Positions 3,255 to 53,500 of a stretch of 64,000 bases of DNA are shown here, piece by piece. Within the stretch, counting starts at the first letter, position 1, and each line of letters begins with the position of its first letter. Source of the DNA: Sipunculus nudus (taxonomy: Eukaryota > Annelida > Sipuncula > Golfingiida > Sipunculidae). The notes under the pieces were generated by a model. It searched no databases. It was given only the letters and a program-made list of their open reading frames with translations, and was not told the DNA's origin. Location: positions 51,300,750 to 51,364,749 of the forward strand of contig CM049318.1 in assembly GCA_026874595.1 (NCBI GenBank), read 5' to 3'. The position numbers and the translations under genes were made by a program.

Positions 3255-3408
3255 TAACTCTGAAGAAAAACAACACTGTTAATTCACAACAGACTGTTTC
3301 ACGGGATGCGACCCGATCATCAGGTGAATTTCCACATTCACCTGATGATCGGGTCGCATCCCGTGAAACAGTCTGTTGTGAATTAACAGTGTTGTTTTTC
3401 TTCAGAGT

Positions 3409-8127: not shown

Positions 8128-8600
8128 ATTTTGTTTTGCATCCTTCGTTTGCATCATAGGCAAGAAAAAAAAAATATTACGGCAACTATTTATTGATTAA
8201 TATATATCAATACATGCATATTAAAACAAATAGTCCAAATAAAGGGAATGACAAAACACGTTTATTTTTAATACATGGCTTTATATTTTATATCACTGTA
8301 TGTCCTCTATTATTATGTAATAACGTGAGACCCTTTAATATTCACATGGTATTTATCCGACAGACAAATATGTACGCATGCGTGAATGCCTGCGTAAAAG
8401 ATGCTGCACGCCCGCGTGCGCAAACGTTTATTTGTCCGTAAATTTTAGGGGGTGTGGATTGAGGTTATTTTTTTTTTGGTTAATTATTTTTTTGCGGTGG
8501 TAAACGCATCCATTTTTAATGCTTGCCAAACTATGTACTATGTGCGTCTGCAGCACTGAATTTTAATTTCGAACTACGTCACAGTGGCTTACACTCGATA
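8121..8600. other. AT-rich sequence, nothing recognised
   Basis: Short open frames only; no splice-bounded or conserved peptide seen. Confidence 0.6.
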
Positions 8601-8855: not shown

Positions 8856-11212
8856 GAAGGAGTCAGATCTCTGCCAATCAATGTGCGCACAGCACTATTT
8901 CCTCGCAATTGAAAATTACAATAATTAAGGCAAATAGCAAATATATAATATGCTTCTACAACATCCATTCCAAATATAAACAATAAACGGCATTTGTCCG
9001 TGAAACATATTTTTTTATATTGATAAACCTGCGGACCTATTTGCGGTGTAATATCTGTGGTGAGGTATTGTAAATATAAACAGAAACTTATGAACGTGCT
9101 TCCTTTGATAGTTCACGTGATACAACTGCTGCCCGAATTGTTGAAGACAACAAGGCACGGTGATAGTGATGGGACACTTGTTGTGGTTATGCAAAAGGAT
9201 TAACTGCATGAATAGGAGGATTAACCATTATTGCATAATGAATTAAGACATTAGTCTCAAAGGATCGAGAGTCACATGTTGCTTACATTTACTGATCACC
9301 CAGGTTCGGCGTGGACTGAGTCAAATGTCAGGTCAAACATGCTTTAGTATGTACTTACTGGCAGAGTCATATCATTGGCTCAATAGACCTTGACCCTGTA
9401 CGGAGGTTGCTTTACTAGACCACGGAAGCCGGTCTATGCAAAATGTATACCTTTTACAGGCTTTAACTGTAGTTTTACAAAGGGAATGACACAGCGTTAC
9501 CCTAATTACTGCTCCATTTTGTATCATGCGATGTGTCATTTGACTTGAATTTCCTATCATAGCCTAATTACATTATCCACATAGGCTTATAAATGTAGAG
9601 GAGGTCCAATCAACAGAAACTGAAAAAAAGTAAATATATTGGGTAATAGATATTATTTCAATTGCATTGTTGCTTCAATCACTGCATGCATATCATGCCT
9701 GGCCAATCTACAATCAGAATATTTAGTTAATAATTTACATTGCGTTCTGTTTTTCGTTTTTTTGTTGTTGCTTGCTCCATTAAGCTTATTTATATTTCCT
9801 TTACGTCGCTTACCGTTCCGAAACAACTCGACACATAATATTGGCACAAGTAATCAGACAGATTATTTATGCCAGGTAATGCCCACAACCTTATGTGGAA
9901 AGGGGAAAGGAGCGGGTAGCGTTAAAAACCTGACTCATTGGCATTTTTTATATTAAATAAATGGACTTGGAGTCGTGTCACCAGCCACCACTGAACAGAT
10001 CTTCCAAGGGGTTTCAAAGGGCTGGATCAAATATTGACTGGTCGGTATTATTTCAAATACAAACATTAAAATATCGTGTTTAGCTTGTACTTAAATTGAA
10101 TATATAATTAAATAACCAGTCGGATTGTGCAAACTACCGCCTCTCTTTTCTGCAGCAGCCATTGTAGTGAGAAAAGCGATCGTTAGGTTCGATTGCAACA
10201 CAGGCTCGTCAACAGGATTTGTTAATGGAGTGATATTTGGGCAATTGGGGTTGTACAGGGTCTCATTTTTTTTAAATATCAGGGCATAAAAATAAGCAAG
10301 TAACCTAAGAGGCGACACTTTTTACTTCTCGATTTGGGATGTGGCAACTTTTTTTTCTATAAATTGTGAACATAACAGTTTGACAGGCAGAACACGGTCA
10401 AAAATTGCGAGTACATCTTCTTAACTTAAAATTAATCCAAACCCTAAGCCTTGTACTTCCAACCCAAGTATACCTTAATTATCGACATTCGGGTAGTAAG
10501 CTGCCATTGGGGGTCGGTGAGGAGGGGGCAAATTAGAATTTACATTACAACGGCAATTGCCTTTTGCTTTGGTAATTCTATAATAAATATTTACCTTGTC
10601 CTTGACACACAAAGTCAAGGCCAATGCATCCAGGAATCATCTTCCCCAAATTTGAACAGTGCATCGAGCTTTACCCCCAGCTCTGGTCTACGTGACTTTT
10701 TCTAAAAAGCATGTATTGATAAGAGAGGACTCAGTGTGTTTGCCCGCGCATGAATATATTGTGATCTATTATATTTACACAGCTTTAGTTAAAATATCAA
10801 TTAGAATATCTAAGCTATGGCTACCATTCAAACATTACACATGAACCACTTAATGTATGTTTGCTATGACATACGATACCCTATATGTATTACTAACGGC
10901 GGGTCCTGCCCTTTTGTTCTACTATTGTTTCAACAGATGTCAATGCAGTGCCAATGGACTGTACAAATAGAGCTGAATAAACGAAACGCTGACATTGAAT
11001 TTCTGCACGTATCCCTGTTGATACATAACTGTATTGTTTTTTCCCCTCTTGTTATTCTTTTTTCTGTTATAGTCCCAGTTTTCCCCGGACTATATTATTG
11101 TACCAAGCATAATATAAATGTTTGACAAGGACGCTATACTTATGATAAGAACATGAAAATATATCCAAATTATCAATTTTTTTTTTCAGTCATAAATCAG
11201 TAATAATAAATG

Positions 11213-11213
<1 letters not shown>
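8856..11213. other. No supported gene
   Basis: AT-rich, with short open frames lacking recognisable domains or family resemblance. It is the flank downstream of the channel gene's 3' end. Confidence 0.55.
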
Positions 11214-11262
<49 letters not shown>

Positions 11263-11375
11263 TATACATATTTGTCCACAAAAAGATGTTTATATTTAAC
11301 AATTTATATTTTTTTGTTTTGCAATCCAAAAAGGTAGTGGCAGCCGAAATAAAAAAAATGCCTGCCCTGCGTTCT

Positions 11376-11637
11376 TTATGCCTTTACTTTATCAAAGGAT
11401 GGCTCTTCACGGTAGGCGGCGCCACTTTCGGTTTTTTCCTTGACCTTGACTCGTTTCCACATTAGTAGAGCCAGGAAGTCCACGATCTCGAAGAGGGATA
11501 GTACGCTTGCACCGAGAAGCAGGCCGAGGAACCCTCCGATCTCACTAAGCAGACTCAGAAATCCAAAGGCCACCTGCTGCTTAATTAGTTCATAGTTCAG
11601 CTGTTGGTAGAATACGTCAATCTGAAGAATGTTGTTC
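11376..11637 (-). CDS. DEG/ENaC exon 11 (last palm strand, TM2, C-tail, stop)
   Basis: 262 nt to the TAA at 11376-11378. Encodes DVFYQQLNYELIKQQ, then LLSEIGGFLGLLLGAS and TM2, with the conserved GG, GL and GAS filter residues. The cytoplasmic tail is short and basic, about 30 residues ending DKVKA. No clear AATAAA was found close downstream on this strand. Confidence 0.95.
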
Positions 11638-14024
11638 CTATAAATAATTGGAAATATTCAACTTTGATGCAACAGTATATGTCATTTAAACAAATGTAAA
11701 TCTCTGATTACATCAACCATGTGCCTTTTGAGAGACAGACAGACAGACACAGACAGACAGACAAAGACAGACAGACAGAGACCCACAAACGCAGAGAGAG
11801 AGAGAGAGAGTTTCATTATATACGGATAAATTATAAAACCGTGTAAATCATCAAACTGTAGAATAAATAGCGATTCTAATATAATTAATACAGCTGCAAC
11901 AACACAGTAAAAACAATAAATTTACGTAAAGGGAACAGGTTTCAGGTGGTCTCGAAAGCGATGACTGCAAGATTATCTTTATAACTTCATTTCCGTTAAA
12001 TTACTGTGGATCATTATCAACTCAATTCAAAAGAACCTCCTCAAGCGTATGTGAAAGCGACTGATGCAATGTAATACGTGTTACTGGGTGGTATCACGCA
12101 GGCGTTTATGTAAGCAACCGCCCTTTTTAAAAGCAGTCTCTTTTAGCTATTATAAGCTCTTATGAACCCTCAAGTGTAAAAATTCAATGAGATCCAAGTA
12201 ATTGCACTTGAGATAAAAATTAAAATCAGCCCACCGAGAAAAGAAAAGAAAAAGAAATATGGACGTACATGACAAAAGTCTCATCGACCGCTGCTTTGTT
12301 CAAATACGCCTCCAAGAATTCCCGCCATTTTGAACCATGTAACGCCATCTGTTGGGCAGCGGCATCGAGTTGTTTGCGTTCCGAATTCACCACACCCTGA
12401 AGGTCACTCAGCACGGAAAGGGGAAACATTATAGAGCTCACATTGACTTTTGTGTCGTTAGTTCCACTTCTAAAATTGTCCACAAGGTTGGAATTTTCCG
12501 TGTCATTCATCGTGAGAAAAACAAAGTCGAAATTTTCTATCGCAGTTAACAGGGTGTCAAGGTCAAGCTGGGTGGCCGCAAGGTCCAAATTGGTCTCGTG
12601 TAATGCTGTCTTGGAATCTTTAGCCAATATGTCAAGTTTTTGCAGGGAGTCCGAAAATGCTTGAGATGTGACCAATTCTGCAACGTCATGCAAGGTTACG
12701 TCATGATTTATATAGTTCAGAGATATGTTGAGATATGTGAAGATATAAGAGCTGAGGTTTTCGTCAAGTTGATGCAAAAAAGTACGTGTTTTGGACACAT
12801 ACTTCTGCGTGCGCGCAATTTTCTCCGAGGCAGAGGCTACCATGGTTTCTAAACTTTCAGAAAAGCTGTCAAAGGGTTCCTCGAACCAGACACACTGTGA
12901 TTGCGCTTGCCGTATAACACCCTTTGTTTCTCTGCTCATTTGTAACATCTGCGAAAAACTATCAACCTTTGCTCCTATTTCTGTATCGTCACGAAATATA
13001 AGGGATGCATTATAGAAATCGTACATTGTTTCATTAACACGCGCTATCAAGTCAAGGCAGGTCCGCAAAGATGTGTTCCATGTCGACTCTAGTCTGATCA
13101 CTGCTTGTTTAGAAGAAAGGTATTCTGACAGAAATGTACTCCTCTGTATTGCCATTAATGCTATCCCTACCACTGGAAATGTGCGGCCCCTTACATAATT
13201 CCAAAGGTTTGCATCAGCCGTTCTGTTTCGGCACTCGTTCCATGTCAAGTTTTTTTGCTGGCAGTTTTGTAAAAGAGAAAGTAAACTTTTTTCGCTGATG
13301 TATCTTGATATTATCGTATTCAGTTCTTCGGTCGAAGCGAAACCAGAGTCCATTATTCGGAAACTCTCCTGTATTTTCTTTTTATCAAATGACTTTCTTT
13401 TCTTATTGAATTTTCCCTGTATCTGTTTGATATCTTTATCAATAGCCTCAACCACTGGAATAACTGATGATAAAGCAGGAAACGTCCTGTTTGTTTTAAT
13501 TATTGTACCAATATGGTCATGCAGAACCCCGTATGATGTATTGAAGTTTGCGACTAGCTTTTCTGTTTTCAACCATCGGAAGTCAACTGCACGATGGGAA
13601 ACTTCAAGAGCTTCCTTGAGCTTCGCTTGTATCTGCGAGAGGTCATTGTCTTCCGATCCTAGCATCCTGTCGACGTTGAGCGAAGCCAGACGCCCGTAGG
13701 ACAAACTCGGTTCGAACAAAGTGCGTTCACAGGGAACAGGACATTTGCAGGTTGGGTTCTCAGGTAAAGATGAATTTTTGTAATCTATAAAAAAAGATTT
13801 TCACAGCTTAAGTAGTATTAAGACGTCAAACGTAGAGTGAAATCTCGCCTGACAACCACCCCGTCATCACAGCCACCACGCTAAGACCACCACTATTTTT
13901 GGTCCCCGACTAATGAAATCACCATAGCTATATCTTGTTATCACTGACGTTTACAGAAGGGTGAACGCTCTCCCATTTTCAGGAGAGGACGACTTCTGTT
14001 AGAGCATCGGTAACAAGATATGTA

Positions 14025-14063
<39 letters not shown>

Positions 14064-14306
14064 ATTAATATCATTTTAAATATGCCATATTTATATAGCA
14101 CCCTTTTTCGCCAAAAGGGTGTTCCAAAGTACTTAATATTAACAATGTACATTTCTTAAATGATCATAAAATCAATCCATAGCTGATGTATTGCTATAGA
14201 AAGAACATGAGTATCAAATTTGGAATGCAAACCAAGGTAATTATATGTTCTGTTTTTTTATATGTTGATTCTTGTTCTGGTGAAATTTAATTGAGACCTG
14301 ATATCA

Positions 14307-14372
<66 letters not shown>

Positions 14373-14502
14373 CAACATGTCTATATACGATTGTATGCGC
14401 GCCTGTGTGTCCCTTTAAGGACTAATATAAAGAGTTGTCAGGTAAAAACGTTTGAATGATAGATTAAATTATAACTAATGCATTCTTATCGCATGACAAA
14501 TA

Positions 14503-14570
<68 letters not shown>

Positions 14571-15100
14571 CAGAAACTGAGTAAACTCTTCATTGGGAGC
14601 CCGCAATAGAAAGTTCATAGTACCCTGAATACCCACTCTTGTTAGGATACTTTTTTTTTTTTTTTTGTTAGGATACTGAACTTGTAAAGTCTTACCTTTT
14701 CTAGCGCAGCCAAACAGCAAACTTAAATTGCATACTGGAACCCCACCTGCAAATAACACCGACAAAACGAAAGGAAAAAATGTTGTTATGGTGATAACAT
14801 ATTTCGTCGCATGTACTCAGTAATTCTGGAAATGAGTGGTTATTATTGACAGATTCATTTTAATAATGATTAAGTTAACTAAACACTAGCTGTTATTAGA
14901 CTGATACCCAACACGATTATAATAAGCCGGAGATATGTTTTTTGACAGTGATTAATGATTTATAACCTAGACAATATTTCATGAACTGAAATTTACTGAT
15001 TGTTAAAAAGGACCCAGGCCTGAAGAGTTATTCTTGTTTAATTTTGGATACATCACTGCTTAGATTCCAGTTATGAATATAACACTGAAAAGCTTGTACT

Positions 15101-15149
<49 letters not shown>

Positions 15150-18100
15150 CGTACTATGACCATGCCAATTATATTTATTATTTTTATTATTATTATTATT
15201 ATTGTTATTATTTTATTATTATTATTATTATAATTATTATTATTATTATTATTATTGTATCCCCAGACAAAGTCGGGGGATACTATGTTTTCATACCGGT
15301 CCCGCCGCCGCCGCCGCCGCCGCCGCATATAAATCTTGTTGGCGCGATAACCCAAAAAATATTTCACGGAACTTTACCAAACTTGGTATATGTATAGATA
15401 TGGGTGAGAGGACGACGCCTATTTAAAATGAGGTCATGACCTTTACTAGGAGAGTGTCCTTGACCTTGAATAGGTCCAATTTTGGGGGAAAATCACACAA
15501 ATTCTTTAATATCTCAAGAAATCTTGCATGGATTTATCCCAAAGTCAACTTGATGGAAAATCATGGATAGGGTGTTCCAGAAACTGGTGGCGCCACCTAT
15601 TATTCTTTACTTGTTTTCGTGCCGTTTAATACCCCCAAAATTGCCACCTTACAGTACTGTGGGCATTATAAGTAAAAAACTAATGGACAGGTCTCTTTTA
15701 TATTATGCATATACATAGGTATGGGTTATGGGATGATGTTTATTTAAATTGGGGTCATGACCTTTCCTATGATAGTGGCCTTGACCTTAAATATTGCCAT
15801 ATATGGTGAAAATCACACACCTCTTATGATATCTCCAGTGTTGATAGCCATATGGATTTCAAACATGACTTATGTATGGCCCACCACTAAAGTAAGAACC
15901 CTTTAGGTTCTAGGGTCATGAGTTCAAAGGTCAAGGTCACTGGACTGGCATTTTAAAAGATACTGTGGATGCATTTTAAAGCCAAACTTTCATCCTAGGT
16001 CTTCCATCTTGAATATATAGCTCACTTGCCAATAGTGGATGATCCATATAAATTTTGGGGTCACAAGGTCAAAGGTCAAGGCCACAGGAGCTATCTGTCC
16101 AAAAATTAGTTTCTGGATGATAATTCCTGCTTTTATTGATGTATTGATTTCAAACTTGACTTATATATGTCCCATTGAAAAAGCAAGATTCCAATTTATT
16201 TTAGGGGTCATGAGGTCAAAGGTCAAGGTCACATGACACATCTTTAAAAAGATTGTGGATGCCTTTTTTAGCCAAACATTTCATCTCAGACCTTTCATCT
16301 TGCACATGTAAGTCATCTGCCAATAGAGGAAGACCCCTATCAGTTTTGAGGTCACAAGGTCAAAGGTGAAGGTCACAGGAGCCATCTGTCCAAAAATTAG
16401 TTTCTGAAGGATAAATCCTGCTTTTATTGATGTATGGATTTCAAACTTGACTTGTATTTGACCCATTGGAAAAGCAAGACCAGAATTGATTTTGGGGTCA
16501 TGAGGTCAGAGGTCAAGGTCACAGGAAACCTCTTTAAAAAGATTGTGGATGCATTTTCAGCCAAACAATTCATCTCAGATCTTTCATCTTGCACATATAG
16601 TTCACCTGCCAAGAGTGGAAGACCCCTATCAATTTTGAGGTCACAAGGTCAAAGGTGAAGGTCACAGGAGCCATCCGTCAAAAAATTAGTTTCTGGATGA
16701 TAATTCCTTCTTTTATTGATGTATGGATTTCAAACTTGACTTGTATATGTCCCATTGGAAAAGCAAGACCCAAATTGATTTTGAGGTTATGAGGTCAAAG
16801 GTCAAGGTCACAGGACACATCTTTAAAAAGATGTGGATGCATTATCAGCCAAACATTTCATCTCAGATCTTTAATCTTGGACATATAGTTCACCTGCCAA
16901 GAGAGGAAGAACCCTATCAATTTTGAGGTCACAAGGTCAAAGGTGAAGGTCACAGGAGCCATCTGTCCAAAAACTAGTTTCCGGATGATAATTCCTTCTA
17001 TTATTGATGTATTTATTTCAAACTTGACTTGTATTTGACCCATTGGAAAAGCAAGCCCTGAATTGATTTTGGGGTCATGAGGTCAAAGGTCAAGGTCACA
17101 GGAAACCTCTTTAAAAAGATTGAGGATGCATTTTCAGCCAAACAATTCATCTCAGATCTTTCATCTTGCACATATAGTTTACCTGCCAAGAGTGGAAGAA
17201 CCCTATCAATTTTGAGGTCACAAGGTCAAAAGTGAAGGTCACAGGAGCCATCTGTCCAAAAATTAGTTTCTGGATGATAAATCCTGCTTTTATTGATGTA
17301 TGGATTTTAAACTTGACTTGTATATGTCCCATTGGAAAAGCAAGACCCAAATTAATTTTGGGGTCATGAGGTCAAAGGTCAAGGTCACAGGACACATCTT
17401 TAAAAAGATGTGGATGCATTTTCAGCCAAACATTTCATCTCAGATCTTTCATCTTGCACATATAGTTCACCTGCCAAGAGAGGAAGAACACTATCAATTT
17501 TGAGGTCACAAAGTCAAAGGTGAAGGTCACAGGAGCCATCTGTCCAAAAATTAGATTCTGGGTGATAATTCCTGCTTTATTGATGTATAGATTTCAATCT
17601 TAACTTGCCTATGTCCCATTGGAAAAGCAAGACCAGAATTGATTTTGGGGTCATGAGGTCAAAGGTCAAGGTCACAGGACACATCTTTAAAAAGATCAAG
17701 GTCACAGGACCAACATCTTCAACAAGATTGTGGATTGTTAGATGGAAGAAACAATAAATATGCCAAGTGTCAGTATATGCTGCTAAAAATGGGGGTCTAT
17801 TTATAAAGGGGGGGGGGGGCTACTATGTCTGGGGATACTCTGGCACCTGCGGTGCCAAGAAATGTCTAGTTATTATTATTATTATTGATGTTAGAAATAT
17901 ACCATATTTATATAGAACTCTTTTTCACCAAAAGAGTGTTCAAAATACTTTACAATGTACATTTCTTATATGATAATAAACTAAACTATAGCTGATATAT
18001 AGCTCAATGTATAGCTGATTTAAAAATACAAAGGTGCTGATATATTCGTCGTTCTCATTCTGGACCGTAAATGCTGACTTGCCTTGCAGTTCTTCAGTGA

Positions 18101-21100
18101 CATGTTGCATTGAGGATTCCGGCATTTCAGGTTCCGGCATGTAGATATCCCGGCAACCACAGCGCGCCACTGTGGCCTCCGCCTGACACTGGATGGTACA
18201 CGTTGACAACATGAGACGTGTTTTCTTGTCACAGAATCCGTATGGAGGCTCCAAGCCAGCAACCTGAAAAGGCGCATCACAATTAACAACCAGAGAAGAA
18301 TTTTTATCCTATGGTGTTATGAAAAACTACAAAATCAATTACATTATACATAATCCCCTACCATGATCGGGACGACGATTTAGCTCGTTTAGGAGATCGA
18401 GGTAAAGACTTATAATAGGTCGGAAGAGGACTATTTTCAATCGGTTAAAAACTGTTGTGTAGCCCCCACGATTTCATATAAACGTTGGTCCTTCATCCAT
18501 AATCCTAGTCCATAATCGGGAGTCAGTCCTTTTAAGCATGCTCGGCATCAGTCGTGGTATTAAATCTTGGGTAGTCGGAGGTCGTAACTTTACAATGCTG
18601 GCGAAAATGTCTCGACAACCCATATGCGTGGTAAAAGACCCGTTCCCACTTTCACGAATTTGACACCATTCGTGACCATTCGGTCTGTCGAGTAAAAAAA
18701 AAACCATAACAAGGACGATGCCGTAAGAGAGGTACAATGCCAGTACGACATGCTACAACAGTGACGATAAGGCACGAGACTTTTAAGATTGTTCACGATT
18801 CCGTTACGACTTCCAAATAACTGTTACGATTATCTCCACGATTTTCCACAACTGGGCTACCATTTGTGGACGACGCCCCTATAAACATTCAATCCTGCTA
18901 CGCCATGACCATAAATTGCATCACGTGTTTGCTTTTTATTTTGCATTCCAGTCTACAACCAAGAATTTTTGTTAGAGCTGCACTGTAGGAGGAAGAAACT
19001 TATGCTGAATGTGGCTGTTCTGATCTTAAAAAGGGACAGACCAGTCAGAAATCCTGCGTAATGCTCTTAAGTTACTGTGGGCTTCAGTCTGGACTATTGA
19101 ACACTTTGAGAAGCAGAACCAAGGGGACCCCCTCCCCCTTTTTTTGAAGGGTAGACCAATTTGTGCAGCCTGGAACCCACGTATCCGGACCTGACTATAC
19201 CTGTCTTTACGTTTTGTCATTAGTCATCCTTGGCTGGACCCCTCCTTTAAATAAATCCTGGATCCGCCCCTGACTTTTCCCAGAATTGGAATCGCAGTAA
19301 TTGACTGGAATTTTGTCTCAACTCGGCGTCAGGCCGAGAATATCTCAAGTCCATTGAATAAAAGAAGATGAAAATGACGACTGATATGTGCGACAAGTTT
19401 TCAGAATAAAACAAAAAAGTTAGAAAGGAGTCCTACACTGACAGTTTTACATAACTGGATTGTTAGAAAGACGACGTGCCTAAATTAGATGTTAAATATC
19501 TGTATTCTCCAAATATTGGTTAAAATATCTGTTTGATTCTGCCCTGAACTTAGTGTGTTACCATTCTTTTATTATTAGTTTGTCTGCATCTCAAATCTAA
19601 ACCATAGTAATGCCAGATTGAGAACACCTTCGAGACTTAGTGTTATTCTCGAATAATAAAATAGAAACTCACACCTTATAATATAGACTATTGAGAGTGT
19701 GTTTAAGTATGAAGAAAATGAATAATTTACCCAGCTTTTAATTGTTTTGGTTCAAATATAGTTGCAACCAATATCCACAAAACACACCTTCCTTTAAAAC
19801 AATTTACTCAGTTCGCTAACAGTTATAACTTCTTCCTCGTTTGTTTGAAATTAAATCACAAATCAAAAAGGAAACTTAATTTTCCGTTAAATTACAAAGA
19901 CGAATGTACCCTGATTAAGAGTTCTATATGAATGTGAATTATTGGAAATGAAACTTCATAAAAAAAACACAAATGGTTTTTAGGATTCACATATGAAACT
20001 GTTTCTAAATATAATATTTGTTTCTCACAGTTGCCTCTGATTGTACATTGTTCTACTTAGGGGACGGACATAGGCTCAAACTTCTGTGATCTGGACGCCC
20101 ACATTTACTAGAAAAGTGTATCAGCTTCAACGTTGATGTCCATATTCTCTTGATTCGTCTGACGTTTAATGATCGTGTCTCCTTTTAAGCGGTTCTTGAT
20201 GTAGTCGTATTGTAGTCGTGTTGAAGTCGTATCAGGGTCATGGTCATTCTGGATCTTTCGTGACACAGTTTCACATCAAGAATGACCAGTAATTATGAAG
20301 ACTTTTACAAGACTTGTCAATAAACTGTTACGACTTCGCTACGACTAGGGAAGAAAAAGTTTAATTTTTTAACATTTCATAGCGCCATTTATTCCTAGTC
20401 CTCAAGACATTGCTACGAATATTGCCGAATGTCCAAGATTTCATCTACGGCACCCCATCGACATCCCTATGACCTATTATGGTGTCATTTCGTGGTGATT
20501 CGGCGCCACATTCGTGGAAGTGGGAAGGGGGCTTAAGTCCATCATGATTAATCGTGATTAATCATACTAGAATTGTAGCCTAGTAGTCACCAAGGTTAAT
20601 CGTCATTAAGGTGGTTTAAAAAACTGCATTGTTCATCAGAGGTGGTTAATATTATATACAATCTTAGCGGCATCATAGTGACGTCATAACTTTTGACATC
20701 GTGGAGCATCCGTGCACGATATTTGTAAATGAGAAAAATCGGGAAAGATCGTGACCCAGATCGTGAATGCGTGACCTTACTTCTTGTAAGGCCATAAAAT
20801 AAAAGCGTGTGGTTCTCAGGCATTTTTTTCAAATATCAATGCGGGCAGGGGGTATTTTAATTTTGACCTTTTTTGTATGTTTCGATAAAAATGTCATATG
20901 ATCAGGGAAAGGCATGAAAATGACAGGTTTTTTTCTTGCAAAACAGGTAAAAGCACTAAATAACAAAGGAAATCGTATCGAAATTGTATTATTTTATCTT
21001 CTTGAAAGATGAAAATCAAAATAAAAATGTTTGATGCGGGGAGGGGGGGGGGGGGGGGTTAAAATTGACGCGGGCGGTGCCTGAGAACCATAACTTTTTT

Positions 21101-24100
21101 TTACCTAACTTTAGTATTTTAGTCATGCTAGAGCATTATGTTCCGAGTTGAACTAGGGGAGAGAAAGGGTTGCTAATCAGGATGCTTGTGATGCCTTGCT
21201 TTACAAAACTCTATATCCGGCCCTCAGTACTAAAACTTTGTAACTCTACTTACCTGTATTCTTTTCACTCCAACCAAGGTATGGCTACCTGGAGCTATGG
21301 CGAATCCTTGGTCTTTTACCAGTGGTTCTTCACTTTGGTCGTGCAACATAACCTGTAAGATACGAGTAAAGAAAATGGACGGGTCAATGTAAGGGGAATT
21401 AACGTTAAATGTGCTGAACAATAGTGGTGTGCCGATTAATCGATTAAATCAATGACTGGTCATTTTCTTTCAAAATCGATTGAATCGACTGCAGTTTTGC
21501 AGAATCGATTAAAAACGATTATGTATGCACATGCAAAGAAACTTAACCTGTCAGAGATATACAAACACAAAAAAATGAACAGTATCAAAACGGTATCTTG
21601 AGCAGCCAAGAATCATCCGACAGCAAGTTGGCCTTAGATGATGGTGGATAGATAGTTTCATTATGAATACCGTTGTACAATTTAGACAGACTATGATTAC
21701 TGGGGTCAATAATGTTGGTACTAGTATATAGCAGAGTTCAAGGTAATATAGAAAGTACATGAAATAATCGATAAATAATCGATCATCGGTTGTTTTTATT
21801 TTTCAATCATCGATTATGATTTTAAAACCAACTACAGCTACTGAGCAACATGTTTACATAAGTACAATACCCTTTAGCAGGCCCGGCTTGAGGACTTCGG
21901 AACACCGTAGCCCAGGTGAACAAGTAAATGGAGAAAGCAGGTAGATTTTACACAAAACTACATTGCCTGCATAAATAGGGAAATTATATAAACGGTGCAA
22001 GACGCTAATTCGGGCTCTTTTATTTCGGTATGAGGCGTGATTTTATTTTTTATTATGTAAAATTATTTGTCTAACGGGGGGGGGGGGGGGGGGGCGCCCC
22101 ATTATATCCCCCCATGCCTAGTCTTTCAGCTTTAACATAATACATATGATATAAAAGAATGCATTCGGTATGACTGAAGTGTGCATGTCATTGGTTATTC
22201 ATTAAATAGTAAAAAATATGAGGTATGTTAATAACAGAGAATTGATGTACAAAACGGTTAAATGCAAGCAAATGGAACTGTTCATTTTTAAGCTTTCTCA
22301 TACTATAAGCAACCTAAATTCTCTGAAAACATATTTCATTAACACGCGTCTGACGAAAAGTCACAGCTGCTAACAACGGAGTTTCTTTTGTGCGAATTGT
22401 TCAAAGTGTGTTTCACAAATCCTCATCGCTAGAAATTTCATTTATTGTTATATTCGAATTTGTAAATAAATATTATGTATATTTTTTTCGTAAGAAAGTA
22501 TGAATTTTTCAAAGTATCGCATTTTTAACTTTTCCTTGTTTGAACTACTTGGACTATTCACACATCGGTGGAGAATGCATTCCGCTTTCTCGGGAGTCAG
22601 TGGTTGAGCCACGGATGGTCAGTCAGTCTTTGAACAGCGTCTGATTTTACTGAGTTGTCTCACTCTGAAATAACTGTCTCTGCCGCAGTAACATATTAAT
22701 GTATAACCGTTATCAAACTCACCTTTATACCGGCATCAGTCCAAGGCCCTCTCATGTACTCGTATTGTTCAACGTTCAGAGTTAACGACAGACCTTTCGA
22801 CGCACCTTCAAGAAGGAAGTTATTATAATGATTTACCCTACAGAATGAGCACTTACACTGGTGTAGCGATTTCAGATTATCCCCGGGGGGGGGGGTAAGT
22901 TGATTTCACAGTTCGACTGCAGATTAGCCCTTCAAAACAGTCGTTTCTTCATGTTTATTTACTTAAATTTAATTTCTTCCTCTTGATTTTCCATATTAGA
23001 TTGAACCTTTGTATTGCTTGTGTTTGTCATGTGCCATATGCTTTGGTAAAGTGCAGGAGTCAACATGAATATAATTAACAATAAAGTTTACATTTTGTGA
23101 ATATTTTTCAAGGATTGTTCCAATTTCGTATTTTCACGTGTTTTAATAAAATAATATATAACAAGTTAAAAGCATAAGAATTTATCATTTAGTTAAATCA
23201 GCGAGGGTGTAAACTGTACATTGCTGGGGTATCTGAAATTTATTTCAGATTACCGGGGGATAAAATGAAATCGGAGTAACCTGAAGGCTTTACATCGGTC
23301 AACCAGACTTTGGCCTATACATTCATACGAATCGCCGCCAATATTCATATGGAAATATCAATTCAAAGTTGTTGATGCTTCTAAGTCGGTCCTTTCATCA
23401 TTTTCATGGTATTAACCAGTCCGGTGACTACCGCGCCTGCAGACTGAGGCTGTGTAATCGCCTCAATTGCTGGGTCATATGCATACCACAAAGGAAGATT
23501 AGTAAAACGCACTCGTTTGTGAGCGAAACAGGGCCATAGTCGTCTGAAGCCCAATTTGTGGATGTGACTTTATCGATTAATTGGCGGAACTGTGCATGAA
23601 ATGGATGTATGGCCTAAGTAGTACGGAGATGGTGTATATCATAAAAGGAGTGAACGCATTTGTCCTACGCTATTTTTCTTTCTTCCCATTTCCTCTAAAA
23701 TAAGGATTCACGCGATTGTCGCACAAATTTCCCATCAAGCCTGCAGATCGCTAACCATGGGTGAAGCCGACCGTAAAAAAACTCGCCGATCTTTTTTTTA
23801 TGACGATTCCTTTAATATATATTTGTTGTTTGAGGCAACCGCCCTCATTTTTTTAATGCTAGCTTAACTAAGTTTATATACATCTGCAGCATTCCTTTCC
23901 GGTTTCGGACTCCTTGACAGGGCAGTATTACACGCTTCCTCTCATTTTATATCATTGTGATGACCAGGCCCGGTGACTGCTGCAACTGCGGGACCTGGGT
24001 GTGTAATCGGCCCCGTCACTGAAGTACTCCCGAAAAGCGCACTCGTTTGTTAATGAAACAGGGCCGATGCAGGACACAGCCTTCCCGTTAAGCCTGCAGA

Positions 24101-27100
24101 GCGGTCAACCTGGGTAGAGGCCGACCGTGAAAGTACTCACCGCCTCGGCTGAGATTTGAACTCACGATCTCACGGCTTTTAGCCCTGCGCCCTAACCCCA
24201 CCCACAGAACCCAGTGGAATTGGGAATTATATATGGGAAATTATAAATTATAATGAGAATAAATAATAAAAATAAATATAATAATTGACGACCTGATTCT
24301 GACACAAATTCTTAATATTCTGAGTTCCTATTAAAACCATAATTTAGTTAATAAGAAACAAGATGTTACTGACCTGATTCCGACACAGAGGCTTGATGTT
24401 CCTCTTCTGAGTTAAATGTGTAGCATATTCCAAAATCTGTCATCTTGACCTTGAAGGCTGTCGATAGGTCACACGGGGCTCCCTTCCAGCGGCAGCTATG
24501 TAAATATAATAGTATTATGTCGAAAAATCAATCCATGTTATTAAGCCCTTATATTACTTATACAACACTCTATTTTCATAATTAACAACATATTGCGAGA
24601 GTTTCCAAAGTTAAAATCTTCTAGAAACTGTTTTACAGTCAGTGTGACATAACATTACTTCAGGGTGATTTATGTTTATGTGGTACCTTTAACAAGAAAC
24701 GTCTTTCTGATCCTGTGTGCGTACTTTGTAGATACCAACGAAATGATTGGCGTCCTTTTTAGGTAAAATAATAATAGTGTGCAAAATTTTAAATAAGTAT
24801 GCTTTATACCTTATAACAAGATCTTTCATTTGATGAGCCATTTGAAGAAGGAGAGCGGTCATGTTCCCATGGTGATCGTGGTTAAACTGAAGGAGTTCAC
24901 CTGTGAAGAAGATAAGTGTTAATTAATAATATTAATTAATATTAGTTAATATTACAAAGAAATATCTCATTATTGCATCAGAAAAATTTTTGATTCATTA
25001 ATTACTCCCATTTTCAGACAGTAAATGCTGTGTGGCAGATGGTTAGATAAGAAACCAAATATATATCATCTGCTATATCAGATCTTTTCCTTTCAAACTG
25101 ACAAGAGGTTCCGTGGCCAAATATCAAAAGAAGCCCTAAAAATGAGTAACCCTTTCCCATTGTAGAAAACATACCATATATTTTTTTTTCTTGGATTTTA
25201 TTTAAGCGCAATCTTATCTCACAAAAAAATCAAGTATAAACTTGTTGTGTCAAGAATTATGAATTCGAGGTGCCCATGGGCGTACCTATAAATCGTCTAT
25301 AGTTCATTTTTATGGACCTGTAATGGTAGGTGTCTACTAATTCTTTTGACACTGGTAGTCTCACAACAACGAATGGCTACTTTTGTTATAAGGAAATTTG
25401 GTAAGCCATTTACGGATATTATATTTATCTTAATATCTCAATAACTGGCAATAATGGTTGTCATCGATTATGTCTGGACCTAGGCTTGCATGGCCAAAGA
25501 ATAATATGAACTTATATAGCAGCAATTGTGTCTATACTTTATTTTGTATTGTGCAAATTGGGATCGCTACTGTTGAAAAAAAAAAATCTTATTTTCCTTA
25601 AATTGGAAACTGTTCATTGTTCGAACATGACATTTATATCTAGGATTTCTTGGTCAAAGGTTATTTGTTAAATCATTTTATGTTCTGTTCCTTTTACATG
25701 TTTAATATGCAAATTTCGGCAGAAATTAATGTGAAACACGTGTTTATCCAATATCTCAAGAACAACCCTCGATAAATGGTTCCATATTATGTTCAGAGAT
25801 CAATGTAAGAATCGACCATTGAGTGCATGGTCGGTGTACCATTTAATCTTAATATACAATTATAAACAAAACAAAATTTACTTGTTTCCTCAATATCCTT
25901 TATTGCAATTATTCGAATAAACTGTATTTATATGCTCACGCGTATTTCTGATCACCAATGTCAACTCTTTCGCTTTTCATGCAAATGTGACTTACAACAG
26001 TGTTTTGCTATGAAAGTAAATCGCTTTATGCGGGATTTTCATTCTGTGGGTCGATTTAAGATACCATGAAGCCTTTCAGTTCATTTCCTAGGCCCGAAGA
26101 GTTAGACAGGCCTGTCTAAGGTAGACAGGCAAAGTTGACGTGTTAGTGTTGGAAATTATTATTTTATATTAAAATCTTATCTTGATGTGCCTTTTGCCTT
26201 CAGTCTGGCCTGCGTTCAGCAATATCGTGTGTATGAAACACTGCGATACCATGTTCAGTTATATAAATGTGTAGTTAAACTTCTCATTTCTAAAACAATA
26301 AGGAATAATTAAAATAGTGCATTTTAATTGGTGTGCCTGCTGGTAGGTTTCAGCTAACGTCATGTCGGCCCTCTAACATTAGACCAGCGTCAGAGTGCCG
26401 TTATGTCTTGCACTGAGGACTGTAACGCTCCATGAGATTGCTAATTTTCGTAATTTTTAACAACGCCACATGGCCTACAAGTACGCTGTTACTTAACATA
26501 AACCAAACCAATCTTTGGCTCTTTAAGTATTCTTTTTAACAGCGCCTTTTATGTGCGAGAAACATTCTGTTTTAACTAAGCATAATTGAAATTCCCCTGC
26601 ATGGATGTTGAATTTCTGACCGCATGAACACAAGCATGGTACAAAGTTATTGGACGATAGCCAACTTGCACGCATTGCAGAAAATGACTCGTTATAAAAG
26701 TATTTACACTTTTGTTTTGAGTTCATATGCATTATTTTGTGTTATCATTCATAGTCTGATGTTAAGATTATTGGCTGTTTTCCACGATACTAGTAAAGCA
26801 GGACGGGTGAACGTTGCAGTACGTTACCCTGTATGGTTTGTATCACCACTCAATTTAGGCCTACCAGTCCAATAAAATACCTTACCGGTCGTGTATTCAC
26901 GGCTAGGTATCAGCCTACAGATCCGATGAGCTAAAACAATCATATTTAACGAAATACCTAGAGTTCTATAGATAATAGGCCTTTGAATAGATAGTATAAT
27001 TACCAACCCATCTCCTGGTCTCATGGACATAAAACGATAAATTCTGTTAAGAAAATATGGCAAACGGTCTATTACTTCAAGCCTCAATACTGATGATTAT

Positions 27101-30100
27101 AATGGAAGTTTCTTTTCAGAAGTAATCCTATCATATATTACCTATCCGGCTATTTTATTGTTGCAATACGCTTGTATATACAGCATACTGAGCAGATATC
27201 AATTTCAATACAATGGGGATTTTGTGAGGATAGGTTAAACAACCTATTTTAAGCAAATAATTCTTTTTTAAAAGCGACAAAATACTTTGCCACGATGACT
27301 TTCCTAATTTGCATTTTAATGAAATAAAACTGAACAGTGAAAATGTCTTTGTATAGTTTGTTTTCCTGACACAGCCTAAGAATGAGAGATTCTAACGAGT
27401 TTTTCCGAGGACTGGTTCATGGGTAAAATTTGTGTTGTCCATTCAAAGGAAATGATACGATTACCTGACGTGTAATAAGTTCTTTTTTTTACTAATATAA
27501 GTATTTTTCATCTTTCTGTGGCTCTGAACAATAAAGTCATAAATGGTAGTGAAAATATTACAGCGGCTCTATCGCAATTTCACCATTTGGCTTTGCAGGC
27601 AGTTTCGTCGATTGAACCGGGAACATTTAGCTTTTAAACCTAACGCGCCGACCACATTCAAAGCTACGTTTCCTCAGTTCACATTGTAAAAGATTGCAAC
27701 GGCAAAATTGAAGAAAGTTTGCTTCTTCAAAGAAAGCCCTCATCTGTATATTGAAAACTAAAATACAATCAAACCATTTTAAACATAGTGTTGTTTAAAT
27801 CTTTAACCCTGAAGAACTAGTTCCTTGGATATTAAGGGATTTTCAATGACTGCCCTAATTTGCATATTTAAATGAAAAAAATGAACAACTGACAATTTAT
27901 TCCGATGATCTTATAACAAGCGTTGATCAAAGAAACTTATAGGTCAAGAAGCCATGCTTGAACAAAAATCACAGTTTCCAATTGTGCTGTAGAATGCCGA
28001 CCCCGATTTGCATGTTAGAAAATGAAATAAAACTGAACGGTTGTAAATATGGTTCACCTGATTTGCATATTATAAAAATACGTACACAATCACAATTATT
28101 TCGTGTGAATTTTTACCATGAAAACTTAGGTCTAGACGTAATGCCTTACCAGTAAACATGGTTAGTTACTGAGATACTGAAGAAAGTATAAATTTGGTCA
28201 ATTTGTATTGCCGGGATTACTAACAGCTTGTAGGTAAACCACTTCACGAATTACCTAGGGTTCATTTATACATATATGCAGAGTAGGCAAGAAATCACTT
28301 CAAGTCTTTAGAAAAGGCAGCTGAATAACTGGCATTAAGTAAGGCCTGAAGTGCTAAAGAGCGATGGTCCAAGGTTCTATTTCAGTGATGCATACAGTGG
28401 ATTGACGAATACATGTTGTAAATAACACAACGAAAAGCATTTGAAAATGTGTCCATTTTGTAATTTCTAACGGCTGCTGTATCGAGCGATTTCCATGCCC
28501 TCTTTCAAAGAGTCAAGGAGCAAGGAAACAGAAAATTTGCACACTATAAAAACAATGAAGGAAAGATTGTGCACGAACGCACTAGTTGAGGAAGTCAGGG
28601 ACCCCCGCCCAAGACATTTAGCAATAATAAAGGCGATAGCTAAGGAACGTTAAACTGTTAAGTCTAAAAATAGGGAAATATTCAGACGTCATAAAGATGT
28701 TAAGATAAAATCTGTAAAGTCCGATTGATGCCACCCCACATCCATTTCACTCTGAAATGCTTCTAATTTAATTGAGCGATGACAGTCTGATTCTACTAAA
28801 AGGGTATGATTGATACAAAACAGTGCAGATAATACAGTGATAATATTTTTACTAAGCATCTCTTTTCCCTGGTGTCTCCTAAATTTTTCCCGGTACAGAG
28901 GTTCTTACCGTTAGTGTATCCTGCTCCATAAAATTTGTCTAGGAACTCGTACATGTTGTTTTCCACGGCACTGGTAATTCTATAACACAGTAAAATCCTT
29001 CATTGTATTAAGTATTAATAAAAGAATCAGATGGACACAATGGCAATGAGAAATAGGAATAAGAGAATAGGAGTTATATTTTGGAAATAAAATATACTGA
29101 TAATTAGAATGGTAGACTGGCTCAATGTTTCTGGGCCGATGATGTGGACAAATTATTGGTGTTTTTAATCAACCTTTGGTGTGTACTCCACAGGCGCATG
29201 ATCAATGATGCATGTAGGACTGAAATCCGGACTTTGGACTCATATTTTTCAGGGACTCGGACGTGGATCTGAATTCGGTTTTAGAGTCGGACTCGGAGTT
29301 TTGGATTCGAGAAACCAGGCCGAGTCTATCTCGAGCTCAGGGGGAAAAGTTGTCATATACTGTTATGACCTGAAGGGGCTGATTCAGGATTTAGGAAAAG
29401 AGAATGTCCATTCCATGAAGAATAATAAAAAATAAATAAAAAAAGGTCCCCAGGTCCGGAGAAGGGGGTGGGGTCTATAGGCCACAAAAATTGGTCTTAA
29501 ACCCTTCAAAAAGGTAGCGGTAATTAAAAAAGGGGTCGGGGTAAGGACCCCCTGCCCCCCCCCCCCCCCAGATCCGCTTCTGACTTGTATACATGTGCGA
29601 ACTACTAACAGAATATGCAACTCTATGGTTGCATCAAGGGGCAGCTGTGCCGGCCAGAACAAAGGCCTGTCCCTGATAGCAGTGAGTGATTTACGGTCTC
29701 GGCCAGGACACAAATTATATTCATCTGTAGAAAAGTATAATATGCTCTAGATTATCTACAAAAATTAACGGAGTAAAACGGATTGTTCTACTGGTGTTGA
29801 TGTTAACCTGAACAAATTCCATAGCAATCCATTCATAACATTTCAGTTTAGTTATTAACAGACAAACCAACCAACCAAGTGACCAATCTAGACAAAGGCA
29901 TTATACAATCAGGCGGAGGCAGAAAGATACGTTAGAAACTGAAGCCATGTGAGAGACTATCGATTCTATCGACCAAACTTGTCGATATATATTTGGTTAG
30001 TCTATCTGCCCCTAGCGACGCTGTAACTGGATCCATTCCTACAGGTGTGCATAATTAATATCTCCATCCAAGATCACAGTTTACACAGCTTCAGGGAATA

Positions 30101-33100
30101 ATTAGATTCCCTACGCTGGTAAAATATACATAAGTTACCTGTAAAAAGTGTAAGCTGCATGGTGACTATATTACGATAGAGGAAATATGCATAAATTCCA
30201 TTAGTTGGTGAGACTGTGTTTCACAAAATTGACATATTTTATTTAGCGTTGTTTTGCTTTGATTTCATCCATTCATGATAAGATGAGATATATTATAATA
30301 TAAGAAAATTATACTAATACCTAGCTGGGAAATTATGGGGTGTACATAAATATATGCGATTAAATCATCATTACTTAAAATGTCACTGAACATCATCAAG
30401 AACATAACACAGTAGCGTCAAATTAATAGAAACACAACAAATAACACATATATGAAATATAAAATACTATATGCCTCGAATATTGTTTCACTAAACTCTA
30501 TATTTTGCAAAAGTTTCTGTGGAGCTTAAATCTATTATATACTTTATATTGTCAACAAAATAACATTAGGGTAAATGATAGAAAGGGAGTGCTGATTCAC
30601 ATCTAAATAATTAAAAAAATTAATTTAATATTTGAATAAAAAGAGCATTGACCTGAAGCTGTTTTGGTTGCAGATGGTCACTGCCGGAAACGGAAGTTGA
30701 CCTTCATATATGACCTCTACATTGACGGAACTCTCATGCCTCGCGAAAGCTCGGGACCTGTCAATCACCTGATATGCAAATAATCCCGTAGCTGACACCA
30801 CCACCAAAGCCCATATGATCCTAAAATGATAAATAAAATCTAACATATAGGCAGAAAAAAGTTGGGTTCTCAGACTGTTTTTTTTTCAGAAATCAAGGGT
30901 GAGATTCTTTTATTGGTGTTATTTTCATTTTAGATAAAATTTCCTACAATCAGGGAACAACATGATAATAACAGAGTCGTTTTGCTCAACTTCATAACAA
31001 AACGGAAATTTATCGATTTTTTTAGTATTCTATTTCCTAAATAAAATCGTCCGCGCAGCCGAAGTCCATAATCGGTAATTTCTACTGAAATTTCTACGGA
31101 AGTTCTTAAATGTAAATGTTTCAGCTTTTCATTATCTAAATATTGCAAAGGTGATTTGAGAAATGAAGTTTGACAGACATATTAAGGAACATTAGCAGTT
31201 GCTTGCTAATTACACCAGATCAGCTTCAGGCACTTTTTTACGGCGTATCCTTTTACAGACAAATGCATTACTGGCTTCGTAATACTTTAGTTTCACAGTT
31301 TCACATATACAGAGAGCATATATGTATTACGTGAATGACAGTGATAGCATTCAACCGTTGTCACGTAACTCCTCTTAGGCATTATTATTTGCCTTGATGT
31401 GTGAAAACGATGCAAAGTATGTCCTAAGGGGGTAATTTTCCATATTTTCCCTTATATAAAGCCTAAAATATCTGACATTATTTCGCAAGGAGCTACCACA
31501 GAACCTTCTATCGGAATCTAGGCGAACTCAGACTGTACTAAACATCTATCCCTGACGAAGTCTGGCGGGCCTATTCAACGGAAGAATAACCGGTAATATG
31601 TTTGTTATATTAAACTGGACAGGTACGGATGCGTTTTATAAAGAAAACGCACCTCTTACCCTCTTACCCGAAACACACTGACTTTATGAGACGCATTTGA
31701 ACTTTCCGTATATAATTATACTGTCTACGTACGTGTCAGCATGGTCAGATATAGTATCGTGTATTTCACAAACATGAACCTTTTGTACGTTTGTAAAATG
31801 TATGTGTCTATGTTGAGTGTTTGGGCTAAATAAAGCAAATGTTGATTAAAATCTTATGTTAACTGCATCCACACAGCGGCTTTCCGATTGTGTTGCAAAC
31901 AGACAAAACTAACCACATTTCTTACCATTTCTGACCTTTATAATTATAACGCAACATGAATGTTAACTAGCGATAGTAATGAAATGGACATGTTGATTGA
32001 CATGTTACGATCTCTCGCATTAAAGTTGTAAGGTTAATTCGCTGTGCGCTAACGTTGAGGAACCGGTAATAGAGAGACATTTATAATTTTGTTTTTATAA
32101 GCACTAGTCTCAAATCTTGTTTAAGCCTTCTGAATCACGAAATAATGGTCATAACGACAGGCTTATTAATGATGATTACGTTAAAATATATTCTAGAATA
32201 TTAACGTTAGTTCAGGGAATACATTCTCTCTTAAACTAATTACCATTCCTATATAATCTGTTTATGGTTTTCTTTAAAGTACGTTCGTTCTTCCAAAAAT
32301 ATAAATATAAAAGGTTTGTATCCTTAAAAAGATAATTTTATCGGTTTGTCCTTTTCCTTTTCACTTTAAAGTCCAGTACCGGTAAATAGAGCTTTTCAAG
32401 CATTTTAATATTTATACTTGTGTAGTTATCGACTCGTTCGAAGACAAAGTGAACAAGGGACCTGTGGGTCACGGCGCTCAGCTGAAAATGATTCTGAGAA
32501 TATTTGTATAAAATCCTAGTGGTTGTGTTGACTGTGCACATCTATGGACCACATGAATGATGGAGGAGCCTCTCGTGATCATATCCATGTATTTGTAAAA
32601 GTTTCAGTATTTTAACTAAGTGACTTTAATGGTCCACTGGGAACCATCGAAACCCTGTAAAATATATAATAATGGACATGAGCTGAAGCATAATATTACG
32701 CATTTAATTTATTAACTGAAATAAAATGCTGTACAAAATTAAAATTTTCGATTTTCAAATGAACATAAACTAGATTTGATAAGCAAGCCAGTTAGGTATA
32801 CGTTGCATCTGCACTGTGCAATATGTGAAACTTATGGCCTGAAACCATTTAATGGGGCAATAAGGATAAAAATAGTAATGGGCCTAAGTGTTATATGAAA
32901 GGAGTCATTTAAAAACAAAATGATGTGTAAATGTTATAGTTCTCAACAGTTAAATATATGGCCATGTGAGCTAAAAATTAAATCCCATGAAAATTTGTCC
33001 AATATTCTTGTTTATTCCTTGGGTGTATCAGTGTTACTCATAACATGGTCTAGCAAACTTTAAGAGATACCAATGCAATGCTACAATGTATTTGAAACAC

Positions 33101-50500: not shown

Positions 50501-53500
50501 TTATGGAATATCAATAAAACATTAATTGTGGTGCATTAATTAATCAACACTATTTGACACTGCTATCTTTTACATCAAATTTTCTGATTATGTGCATTGA
50601 TCATATTTTGGACAGACAGTCAAATCTTCAGTCCTCAGTTTTCAATTATGAACAAATTATTTTCAGATAAATGATATTAGAATAAACATATGCTCTGCTG
50701 AATGAATATTTGATTAAAGTCTCTTACCTTATGACATATACGCTGACACTTATGCATGCCACAAGGCAGTAGCCTGTTGCATGGCAACCCACAGGATATA
50801 TCAGTTAGATAGCAGGGGATGTTTTTGCGAATCTGAAAGATAATGAAACAGATGATGGTCTCACTGAAAGCCAATAAACAATATATTTTACTTAACTTTG
50901 ACAAAAAAAAAAAAAAACAAAGACTACACCATTTCCATGAGCAAACACACTGCATGTGGTTTAACAATTGTCTGCTGTGTAATCCAGGGCTAAGAGACCC
51001 CTACCATAACATCTTCCTTAATTAAAGTTTACCATCAACAATAAGGAAAATTATTACTTTAAAATATGTTATTCAGTTTTCAAGACCTTGCTTTGGAAAG
51101 ATACCTCATCATAACACTAAGCTTTAAGTCAACAGGTGTTACAAGAAACAATATTAAGTATAATGAAGTTTAAGCTGCAAGATTCTTCCTGAAGATGGTA
51201 GCCTGCTGGTCTGTTACAGAGAAAACCTGAGAATTACTGGGAGACCTCTGGTGGACACCTAAGAAACTACTTTCAGGGTTCAATCAAAATGTTTTATTTA
51301 ATTGATGTTAAATGAAATAAATTTTGATTATCAGGGTATTTTTGAGCACAGCCTTCTTTATTCAACTTTACTTACTCCAATCCTACATAACTTTCTGTTT
51401 CGGTCATTTATATTTATCATGCACAAGTCTGCAGGTTAAAAGCATTTCATGCCTGATCTGGAATGCAATATATAATGAAAATTCAGGTTTTTAATAAAAG
51501 GCCCTGAAAATATATACATTAAAACCACAAAATTATGACCATCAATGGGACCTCAATAAAGTGGTGGTATTTTTTAGGTGGTCAACTATGTGAGGTGTTA
51601 TATATGGAGCAAAAAAGAATTGGGACAACAAACAAGTGATCATTATTTTGAGTCGGTCGCTCAACAAAGATGGCCATTAGGCGACGTTTTACTGTAATAA
51701 ATAATATAAGGATTTTAAAGTATCTTTCAGCCTGTGGTAACCTTATCTCACCTCGTGTCCTCCCATACATAGCTTCTCAGTGAGTGCTGTACAAGGGGGA
51801 CACTGCTCGTCACTATGGCAAGTATGGCGCACTGAAACACATCAACATAGGCAATTGCAGCATACTTATTTACTGCAGTTCACTGGTGTAAAGCTCCGAG
51901 TCCTTAACATTGTGATCTATGATAATTATTTTACCCTAAAGACCAATGGATACATTGGATACAAGTTTAATCATATTTATCTCCACCTATGAATAGATTG
52001 ATATATATTTATCATTTTCAGTTAAACCACATGAAATTTTGTTATGAAATTAAAATTCATCATTAACAACATCACAGTTATTTTTTATTATCAAAAATTA
52101 GAATTTTTATTATACTTAAATTTTCATCTGAACCACATCAAATTTTATATTACATATCCATCAGTTAAAATAGTACCATGATTAGAGTTTCACATTTAAG
52201 AGAGACTGTACCTTTTCACAGCAATGACATATTACAAAATATTTATACTAAAAGAGTTGTTACCTGTCAACAATATAACGATTTACTCACCAGGGTGATC
52301 ACAGTGATGTTCTCGCGTACACATGTTGGGACATTCCGGAGGTCTCGTTCCACATGGGATCGGTGGGAAAAGGATCTGAGCCCCGCAATAACATGACAGC
52401 TCCTCAAAACCTGAGAGAGAGAAAAAAAGGCCATTACAAAAAAGGGCACCTAAGCAAACTGCTGAACTGAGCATCTTTATCCCCAGGGCAAAGATTAACA
52501 GTACAATATCTAAAACTAGATGGAATGTTTTAATACTGGGTGTAATCTATTGTGACTGAACAAAACCAATTGGGAGGCATATAGTAAAATCTTAATTCTT
52601 ATAGTTATATGCTTGAACAAAACTCTAGCTTCTACAGTTACCCTGTTTGTGAGTGAATCTCTTGTCATTTAAGTACAATATGTTCTGGTCCATAACTTCT
52701 ATATTATGCAATATTGACTTAATTTCTTTTGTGTAAATAGGAATTATACAGAGGAATACTTATGGCAAAAATGAACAAAAAAACAATAGTTTTTATATTA
52801 TGCTGTCTTGAAGTGTAAAAATAGGTTTTAAATGAGAAATGGAGGTTCTCAAAGGAATGATACTGTAATGACCAATTTCAGGTTGGTAGGAGAAATTAGG
52901 AAAATCTGTGTGTAAAACTGCAGGTATGAAATTATAATGGTTTTGATTTGTGCCCTGTTATCAGGCATATGGTCAGAAGGCAGCAGACAAAGACCATCCC
53001 TACAGCTCATATGACTTATAGTCCACTGAGCTAGAAATTGAGTCATTTAAGTTATTTAAAGACTTTTGAACAAATGTGACTTCCTGTTATACAGACACTG
53101 ATGACTAGAGATGATGATTTTTCTGAAGTGCTGTGCATTTCTGCTACCAACAGTCATACTCACTGACATGCCAACATGTATGGCAGTTGCCACGGTGACA
53201 GAGATCTTCACAGCGGTGTAGTCCACAAGTCAGTTTGCGACCACAAATCTGATCACAGGGATGTTCTGTCTCCTAAAAGAATATATGAAGATCATTCATC
53301 ATCTCTCCTTAAAGTTCCACACAAACTAAACACTAATGACTTTATACACAGATACTATCCATTTTAGATCAATAGACTAAAAATAAATAAAAACTTCCTG
53401 AATAAGACACCATTTCTGCCATTATCCGACAATGAACAGTAATTTATTTCATTGCCTCAATGGCATCTCACAAAGTGTCAATGTTTGCATGCATTTTATG

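Follow-up and report, generated by a model that had tools for sequence, protein, structure and literature searches.

The DEG/ENaC channels include mechanosensors among their members. The family has seven disulfides, helix alpha6 is the knuckle in the naming used for ENaC, and the knuckle and finger together form the ENaC apical collar (PMC6197857). In ENaC, gating is regulated by an extra ectodomain, GRIP, which sets a precedent for such additions (PMC6197857), and the EGAS channels of C. elegans are DEG/ENaC members with an extra extracellular module, described as "EGF plus ASC domain" (PMC10424705). ASIC ectodomains are about 300 residues long, and it has been proposed that ASICs were lost in molluscs (PMC9949801); residues H73 and K211 and the pair Y71/W287 have roles in proton gating (PMC10507113), as given in the available portions of these papers. 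The gene described here, in a 64-kb stretch of the Sipunculus nudus genome (the window), encodes a channel of this family with a long insert directly before the last palm strand. Finger helices alpha1 and alpha2 flank GRIP, a domain made of beta strands, whereas the insert of the window protein lies at the knuckle and appears helical; alignment to ASIC1 revealed no GRIP-like addition in the finger, which is shorter than that of ASIC1. The EGAS modules are EGF domains, whereas the insert contains no EGF or other Pfam domain.

The anatomy of the insert-bearing channel gene was read exon by exon from genomic sequence. Eleven coding exons on the minus strand (34564..11376) encode a product of 927 residues (Table 1); phases agree at 10 of 10 junctions, the donor is GT at nine of them and GC at the other, and the exons form one open frame. 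A first guess at a finger exon, near 26372, was replaced by the exon at 24900. The initial annotation had reported an uninterrupted 1.5-kb exon carrying the motif CKCPVPC...SLSYGRL and an in-frame join between ETFVM and NNILQIDVFYQQLNYE, both of which were confirmed. This exon, exon 10, is bounded by the acceptor ttttatag/ATTAC and the donor GTCAT/gtacgt (slashes mark the splice boundaries) and is in frame with both of its neighbors, exon 9 and the TM2 exon; its translation starts with YKNSSLPENPTCKCPVPC and ends with DETFVM before continuing into exon 11. A tandem array (15913-17696), in which a 289-bp unit is repeated about 6.2 times with 89% matches, lies in the intron that separates coding exon 8 from exon 9. 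Elsewhere in the window, a near-perfect inverted repeat with about 70 bases per arm was seen by eye at about 3257-3407, and NF-X1 type zinc-finger exons lie on the minus strand at 50677-57476, where two of six tested frames scored above the Pfam cutoff and one below it; these exons probably belong to an NFX1-like gene that lies upstream of the one encoding the channel.

Table 1. Coding exons and insert of the window channel gene
Feature	Position	Strand	Basis
Coding exon 1: start Met, cytosolic N-terminus, His-Gly motif HGVKYI (residue 33)	34425..34564	-	In-frame model, ASIC1 alignment
Coding exon 2: TM1 and first palm strand	30653..30820	-	Pfam ASC on 30628-30885, E 8e-14
Coding exon 3: finger	28909..28979	-	Splice phases
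Coding exon 4: finger	24810..24900	-	Splice phases
Coding exon 5: CRWKGAPC...	24374..24495	-	Pfam ASC, ASIC alignment
Coding exon 6: palm/beta-ball region	22723..22805	-	Pfam ASC, ASIC alignment, model
Coding exon 7: palm	21254..21352	-	Pfam ASC, ASIC alignment, model
Coding exon 8: thumb, cysteine cluster; GC donor GCAAG/gcaagt at 18083	18083..18263	-	In-frame model
Coding exon 9: thumb, two cysteines	14696..14746	-	In-frame model
Coding exon 10: CKCPVPC motif and entire insert, 1516 nt	12269..13784	-	In-frame model
Insert proper, about residues 370-834: 12 sequons, 4 cysteines, helical periodicity, no Pfam family	12289..13683	-	
Coding exon 11: last palm strand, TM2 with GAS motif, C-terminus, stop	11376..11637	-	Pfam ASC, model; 11 close relatives in genome

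By sequence, the window protein has the features that define a DEG/ENaC channel, including the ASC profile (Pfam, E 7e-59, matched in one stretch on either side of the insert), two TM segments with TM1 at about residue 50, the His-Gly motif, 14 ectodomain cysteines outside the insert at residues 97-354, and a GxS filter motif (GAS) within TM2. The 14 cysteines fit the seven family disulfides, and together with the His-Gly motif and GAS they are common to both ASIC1 and ASIC2. When ASIC-likeness was measured as bit scores against solved chains, the best relatives were ASIC1 (132.5), ASIC2 (132.4), ASIC5 (100.2), ENaC gamma (80.2), and FaNaC (73.2). In the ASIC1 alignment, however, H73 is replaced by Ser77 and K211 by Glu196, and the aromatic pair is changed from Y71 to His75 and from W287 to Tyr266. 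Because these proton-gating residues are replaced, the alignment identifies the window gene as encoding an ASIC-like DEG/ENaC subunit that is not a classical ASIC, and the loss of H73 and K211 makes a stimulus other than protons plausible. Mouse BASIC (ASIC5), of the same family, likewise lacks H73 and K211 (available portion of PMC10507113). BASIC/ASIC5 differs from ASIC1 and ASIC2 in its lower score against the window protein (100 versus 132 bits), and it has no long insert in the PDB alignments.

In the window protein, 487 residues separate the final cysteine of CKCPVPC (residue 354) from NNILQID (residue 842). The counterpart of this interval in ASIC1 is the 36 residues between CEMPC and NIL, which fits the figure of about 40 given in the initial annotation; in ASIC2, a longer stretch, bounded by MPGDA and ENIL, has 70 residues in the printed alignment with the window protein. 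The excess of the window protein over ASIC1 in this interval is about 450 residues, and the insert, previously bounded at residues 376-835 and put at about 450 residues, holds at that size with bounds of about 370-834. The replaced stretch in ASIC1 is presumably the one that holds the knuckle helix. The earlier placement of the insert where thumb and palm movement couples to the pore can be refined: the insert does belong to the channel gene, and its position corresponds to the knuckle and not to the thumb.

The 12 N-glycosylation sequons and four cysteines counted in the initial annotation were both confirmed, and the sequons exceed the mean of 5.1 found in shuffles (P = 0.0012). Hydrophobic residues of the insert recur with a period of 3.5 to 3.6 (z about 5). 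Structure prediction, which had been proposed as a check, was applied to two pieces from the window and returned helices, although at low confidence (pLDDT 40.0 and 46.1); the periodicity and these helices support the description of the insert as helical in look, and an extracellular location is supported as well. Searches for known families in exon 10 returned nothing from Pfam, with EGF families absent up to E 1 from both exon 10 and the C-terminal 770 residues, and from NCBIfam only deg-1 (E 0.012), covering exon residues 5-54. A PDB sequence search with exon 10 alone gave nothing above noise (best E 0.088), and no relatives were found in viral and prokaryote collections. The best self-match within the insert scored 47, compared with a mean of 37 and a maximum of 54 in shuffles, and so gave no sign of internal repeats. 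A repeat origin of exon 10 was also considered and rejected: the window contains no second copy (a single 15-base match), and the tandem arrays found in 11000-19000 do not overlap the exon.

The initial annotation treated the insert as a trait of one gene and allowed that it might turn out to be a common feature. Within this genome it is one: the insert marks a whole subfamily, with at least 15 further loci carrying a long insert at the same site, or 16 with the window gene, a count made up of 11 strong loci and 5 more distant ones. The genome (1.43 Gb) has at least 106 scored ASC matches, which were sampled; two further places (L049 and L050) were read in part and have no bearing on the insert. 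A search with exon 10 found 12 further places, five of which (L021, L022, L023, L024, and L028) have single frames of 453 to 571 residues opening with a CxC...SY motif, and seven of which have short frames. Those seven, and three loci fetched by the TM2 exon, have a split arrangement consisting of a CxC exon, an insert exon (429 to 505 residues), and a TM2 exon. The window TM2 exon had 22 matches in the genome, of which 11 are strong (E no higher than 8e-14, the next match being at 4e-7), and the CxC exon of L015 had 13 matches, namely those 11 loci again together with a degraded relic and L022. The insert exon is present in 11 of 11 close loci, and a TM2 exon lies downstream of all five distant loci, which have one intron more than the window gene, with a small exon in between. 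Taken singly, several exon-10 matches are weak (E 0.013 for L024, E 0.053 for L028, and E greater than 2 for three others), and these were counted as members on the CxC motif, long frame, and downstream TM2 exon; a direct comparison of L024 with L028 gave a match at E 2e-12. Five traces were left out of the count: C1:80029035 (a 299-residue frame), C13:9090367, C13:9091031, C14:29799232, and C13:9085647.

The copy at L011 (C13:3862253-3871517) is broken by an in-frame stop at 8177-8179 in the insert exon, with a frame change near the start seen by eye, and may be a pseudogene, an allele, or a sequence error. L011 was kept in the count of 16 and out of the alignment, identity table, and dN/dS pairs, whereas L016 is in the alignment and tables. 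Near the intact L012, at about 9.085-9.091 Mb on C13, there are a degraded CxC exon with three TAA codons and pieces of insert and TM2, the relic of a further copy. The TM2 segments of the L021-L023 group, at L044-L046 (C7:66.34-66.49 Mb), have GAT in place of the GAS of the window gene, a change that may alter ion selectivity. The same genome also contains DEG/ENaC genes of the same superfamily without the insert (L001-L008), which have about 50 to 80 residues in the interval as judged by eye. These are single frames of 495 to 696 residues, so that intronless and intron-rich gene types occur in one genome.

An E...R pattern follows the SY motif at the start helix of the insert in all 16 loci, with A at minus two in 15. 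All nine members examined agree with the window gene in the place and phase (phase 2) of the intron before TM2, and acceptors before the TM2 exon agree in 10 of 10. This common start pattern and intron favor a single origin of the long insert. The insert bodies fall into four groups, consisting of the window gene, L021-L023, L024 with L028, and the split-exon group. Beyond the start, neither phmmer (best E 0.04) nor hhalign (nothing above reversed controls) matched the window insert to the other groups; the nearest between-group pair was L021-L024 (phmmer E about 6e-3), and the profiles of L021-L023 and L024/L028 aligned over the first 90 residues at E 0.032, against 0.16 for the reversed control. 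Homology of the insert bodies between the four groups is not demonstrable. Within the split-exon group, four cysteines and one tryptophan are invariant over nine inserts, which argues for specific folds; the window insert agrees with these in the number of its cysteines. A profile of the nine inserts matched only helical bundles and coiled coils in the PDB (10 chains, best E 8e-4), matches that were read as composition and rejected as homology, and Pfam searches of the nine gave scattered single-member matches (best E 0.015).

Sequence conservation differs markedly between pore and insert. Over the 45 pairs of ten members, mean identity is 71.0% in TM2, a lenient yardstick for insert divergence, versus 27.4% in the insert, which is the lower of the two in 45 of 45 pairs. 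When the window-gene exons were compared with the split-insert paralogues by tblastn, identities, which refer only to exons where matches were found, were 46% for exons 2-3 (1 hit), 46% for exons 4-5 (5 hits), 59% for exons 6-7 (12 hits), and 30% for exons 8-9 (3 hits), and the insert was matched only at its start. The value for exons 8-9 indicates that the insert is not the sole divergent part. The inserts are under purifying selection in three of three close pairs, with dN/dS of 0.134 (z -6.85), 0.594 (z -2.06), and 0.504 (z -3.37); since these values are below 1, there is no direct sign of diversifying selection. Sequons are enriched (p < 0.05) in 10 of 15 inserts, with no enrichment in L022, L024, L028, L015, and L018. 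Helical periodicity reaches z of at least 3.3 in all 15, and no strand-like period exceeds z 1.9.

It is very improbable that exon 10 is an artefact, whether a chance frame, a retained intron, or a normally skipped exon. Two GTRAG donor-like sites do lie inside it (the scan for internal donors covered GTRAG sites only), but each would break the frame to exon 11. With its intron flanks the open run is 524 codons, 505 of them in exon 10, whereas none of 50 simulated strands of 64 kb had a run longer than 355 codons under exon-like statistics or 197 under window-like statistics, and a chance frame was rejected on that ground. The exon also recurs in paralogues, where its CxC start and the intron that follows it are the same, and dN/dS is below 1 in the three pairs. 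Neither a chance frame nor intron retention would readily account for long inserts that recur at this site in at least 15 other loci, and both are very unlikely.

The reading that we prefer, while holding it somewhat short of probable, is that the inserts are partner-recognition modules that gate the pore through the knuckle and palm. The knuckle segment, a short link from CxCxxPC to the final palm strand, would carry an inserted domain of about 450 residues that is helical, glycosylated, and probably disulfide stabilized. If the subunits assemble as in solved channels, the trimer would bear a crown of three such domains next to its finger-knuckle collar, and the crown of each paralogue would bind a different extracellular partner, which could be a small ligand, a peptide, or a surface molecule. 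Binding would move the knuckle and upper palm, which lead directly into TM2, and the cation pore would open or close. The folded state, trimer geometry, recognition, and coupling of the crowns are inferred; recognition is suggested because a conserved pore is combined with a diverged, mostly sequon-rich helical outer domain in a multilocus family. More doubtfully, the subfamily could represent a so far undescribed type of sodium-channel receptor in which ASIC-like pores carry a fast-diverging helical knuckle domain that replaces proton sensing, with at least 16 loci in a chemoreceptor-like radiation.

The crown might instead control assembly, trafficking, protease access, or basal activity without specific partners, as a shield or regulatory domain comparable to GRIP, which sits elsewhere in ENaC. 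Gating is regulated by that added ectodomain (available text of PMC6197857), dense sequons would suit a glycan shield, and the loose constraint in two pairs (dN/dS 0.5 to 0.6) suits a bulk role, but one pair is under strong purifying selection (0.134) and the cysteines and tryptophan invariant in nine inserts point to specific folds; we regard this explanation as unlikely. A mechanosensory or adhesive tether, in which helical crowns would act as force-bearing arms to matrix, cilia, or a neighboring cell and pull on the palm, would accord with the helical periodicity in all 15 inserts, with the exclusively helical profile matches in the PDB, and with the mechanosensors of the family, which also appear in abstracts. 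Tethers usually keep their binding surfaces, however, whereas here the bodies differ beyond detection between groups, and Pfam identified no known adhesion domain in the insert, so that a tether seems rather improbable.

There is also a small chance that the long insert is already a familiar, perhaps catalogued, trait of invertebrate DEG/ENaC channels. With at least 16 loci in one genome, relatives are likely to be present in public databases under automatic names. Against this, the literature search, in which coverage of subscription journals and preprints was thin, found no description of long knuckle inserts in DEG/ENaC channels. The available portions of PMC9822975, PMC10507113, PMC10424705, PMC6197857, PMC9234716, and PMC9949801 make no mention of long-insert channels, PMC5620054 contains none of the relevant terms, and the figure of about 300 residues for ASIC ectodomains (PMC9949801, in part) also speaks against a familiar trait. 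Relatives that are public but unremarked are the likely situation.

One ectodomain plan is common to DEG/ENaC channels gated by protons, peptides, or force. The sequences of the sister loci suggest sensors with a common pore and a differing outward-facing part, and the long-knuckle subfamily thus offers natural domain-insertion experiments in which the pore is much alike and the outer parts are different. If the genome were that of a mollusc, its ASIC-like channels would be candidates for derived relatives left uncounted by surveys of the kind behind the proposed molluscan loss of ASICs (PMC9949801). With pore and palm retained and a large, fast-changing domain directly before TM2, communication from the knuckle to the gate becomes testable by deletion and swapping.
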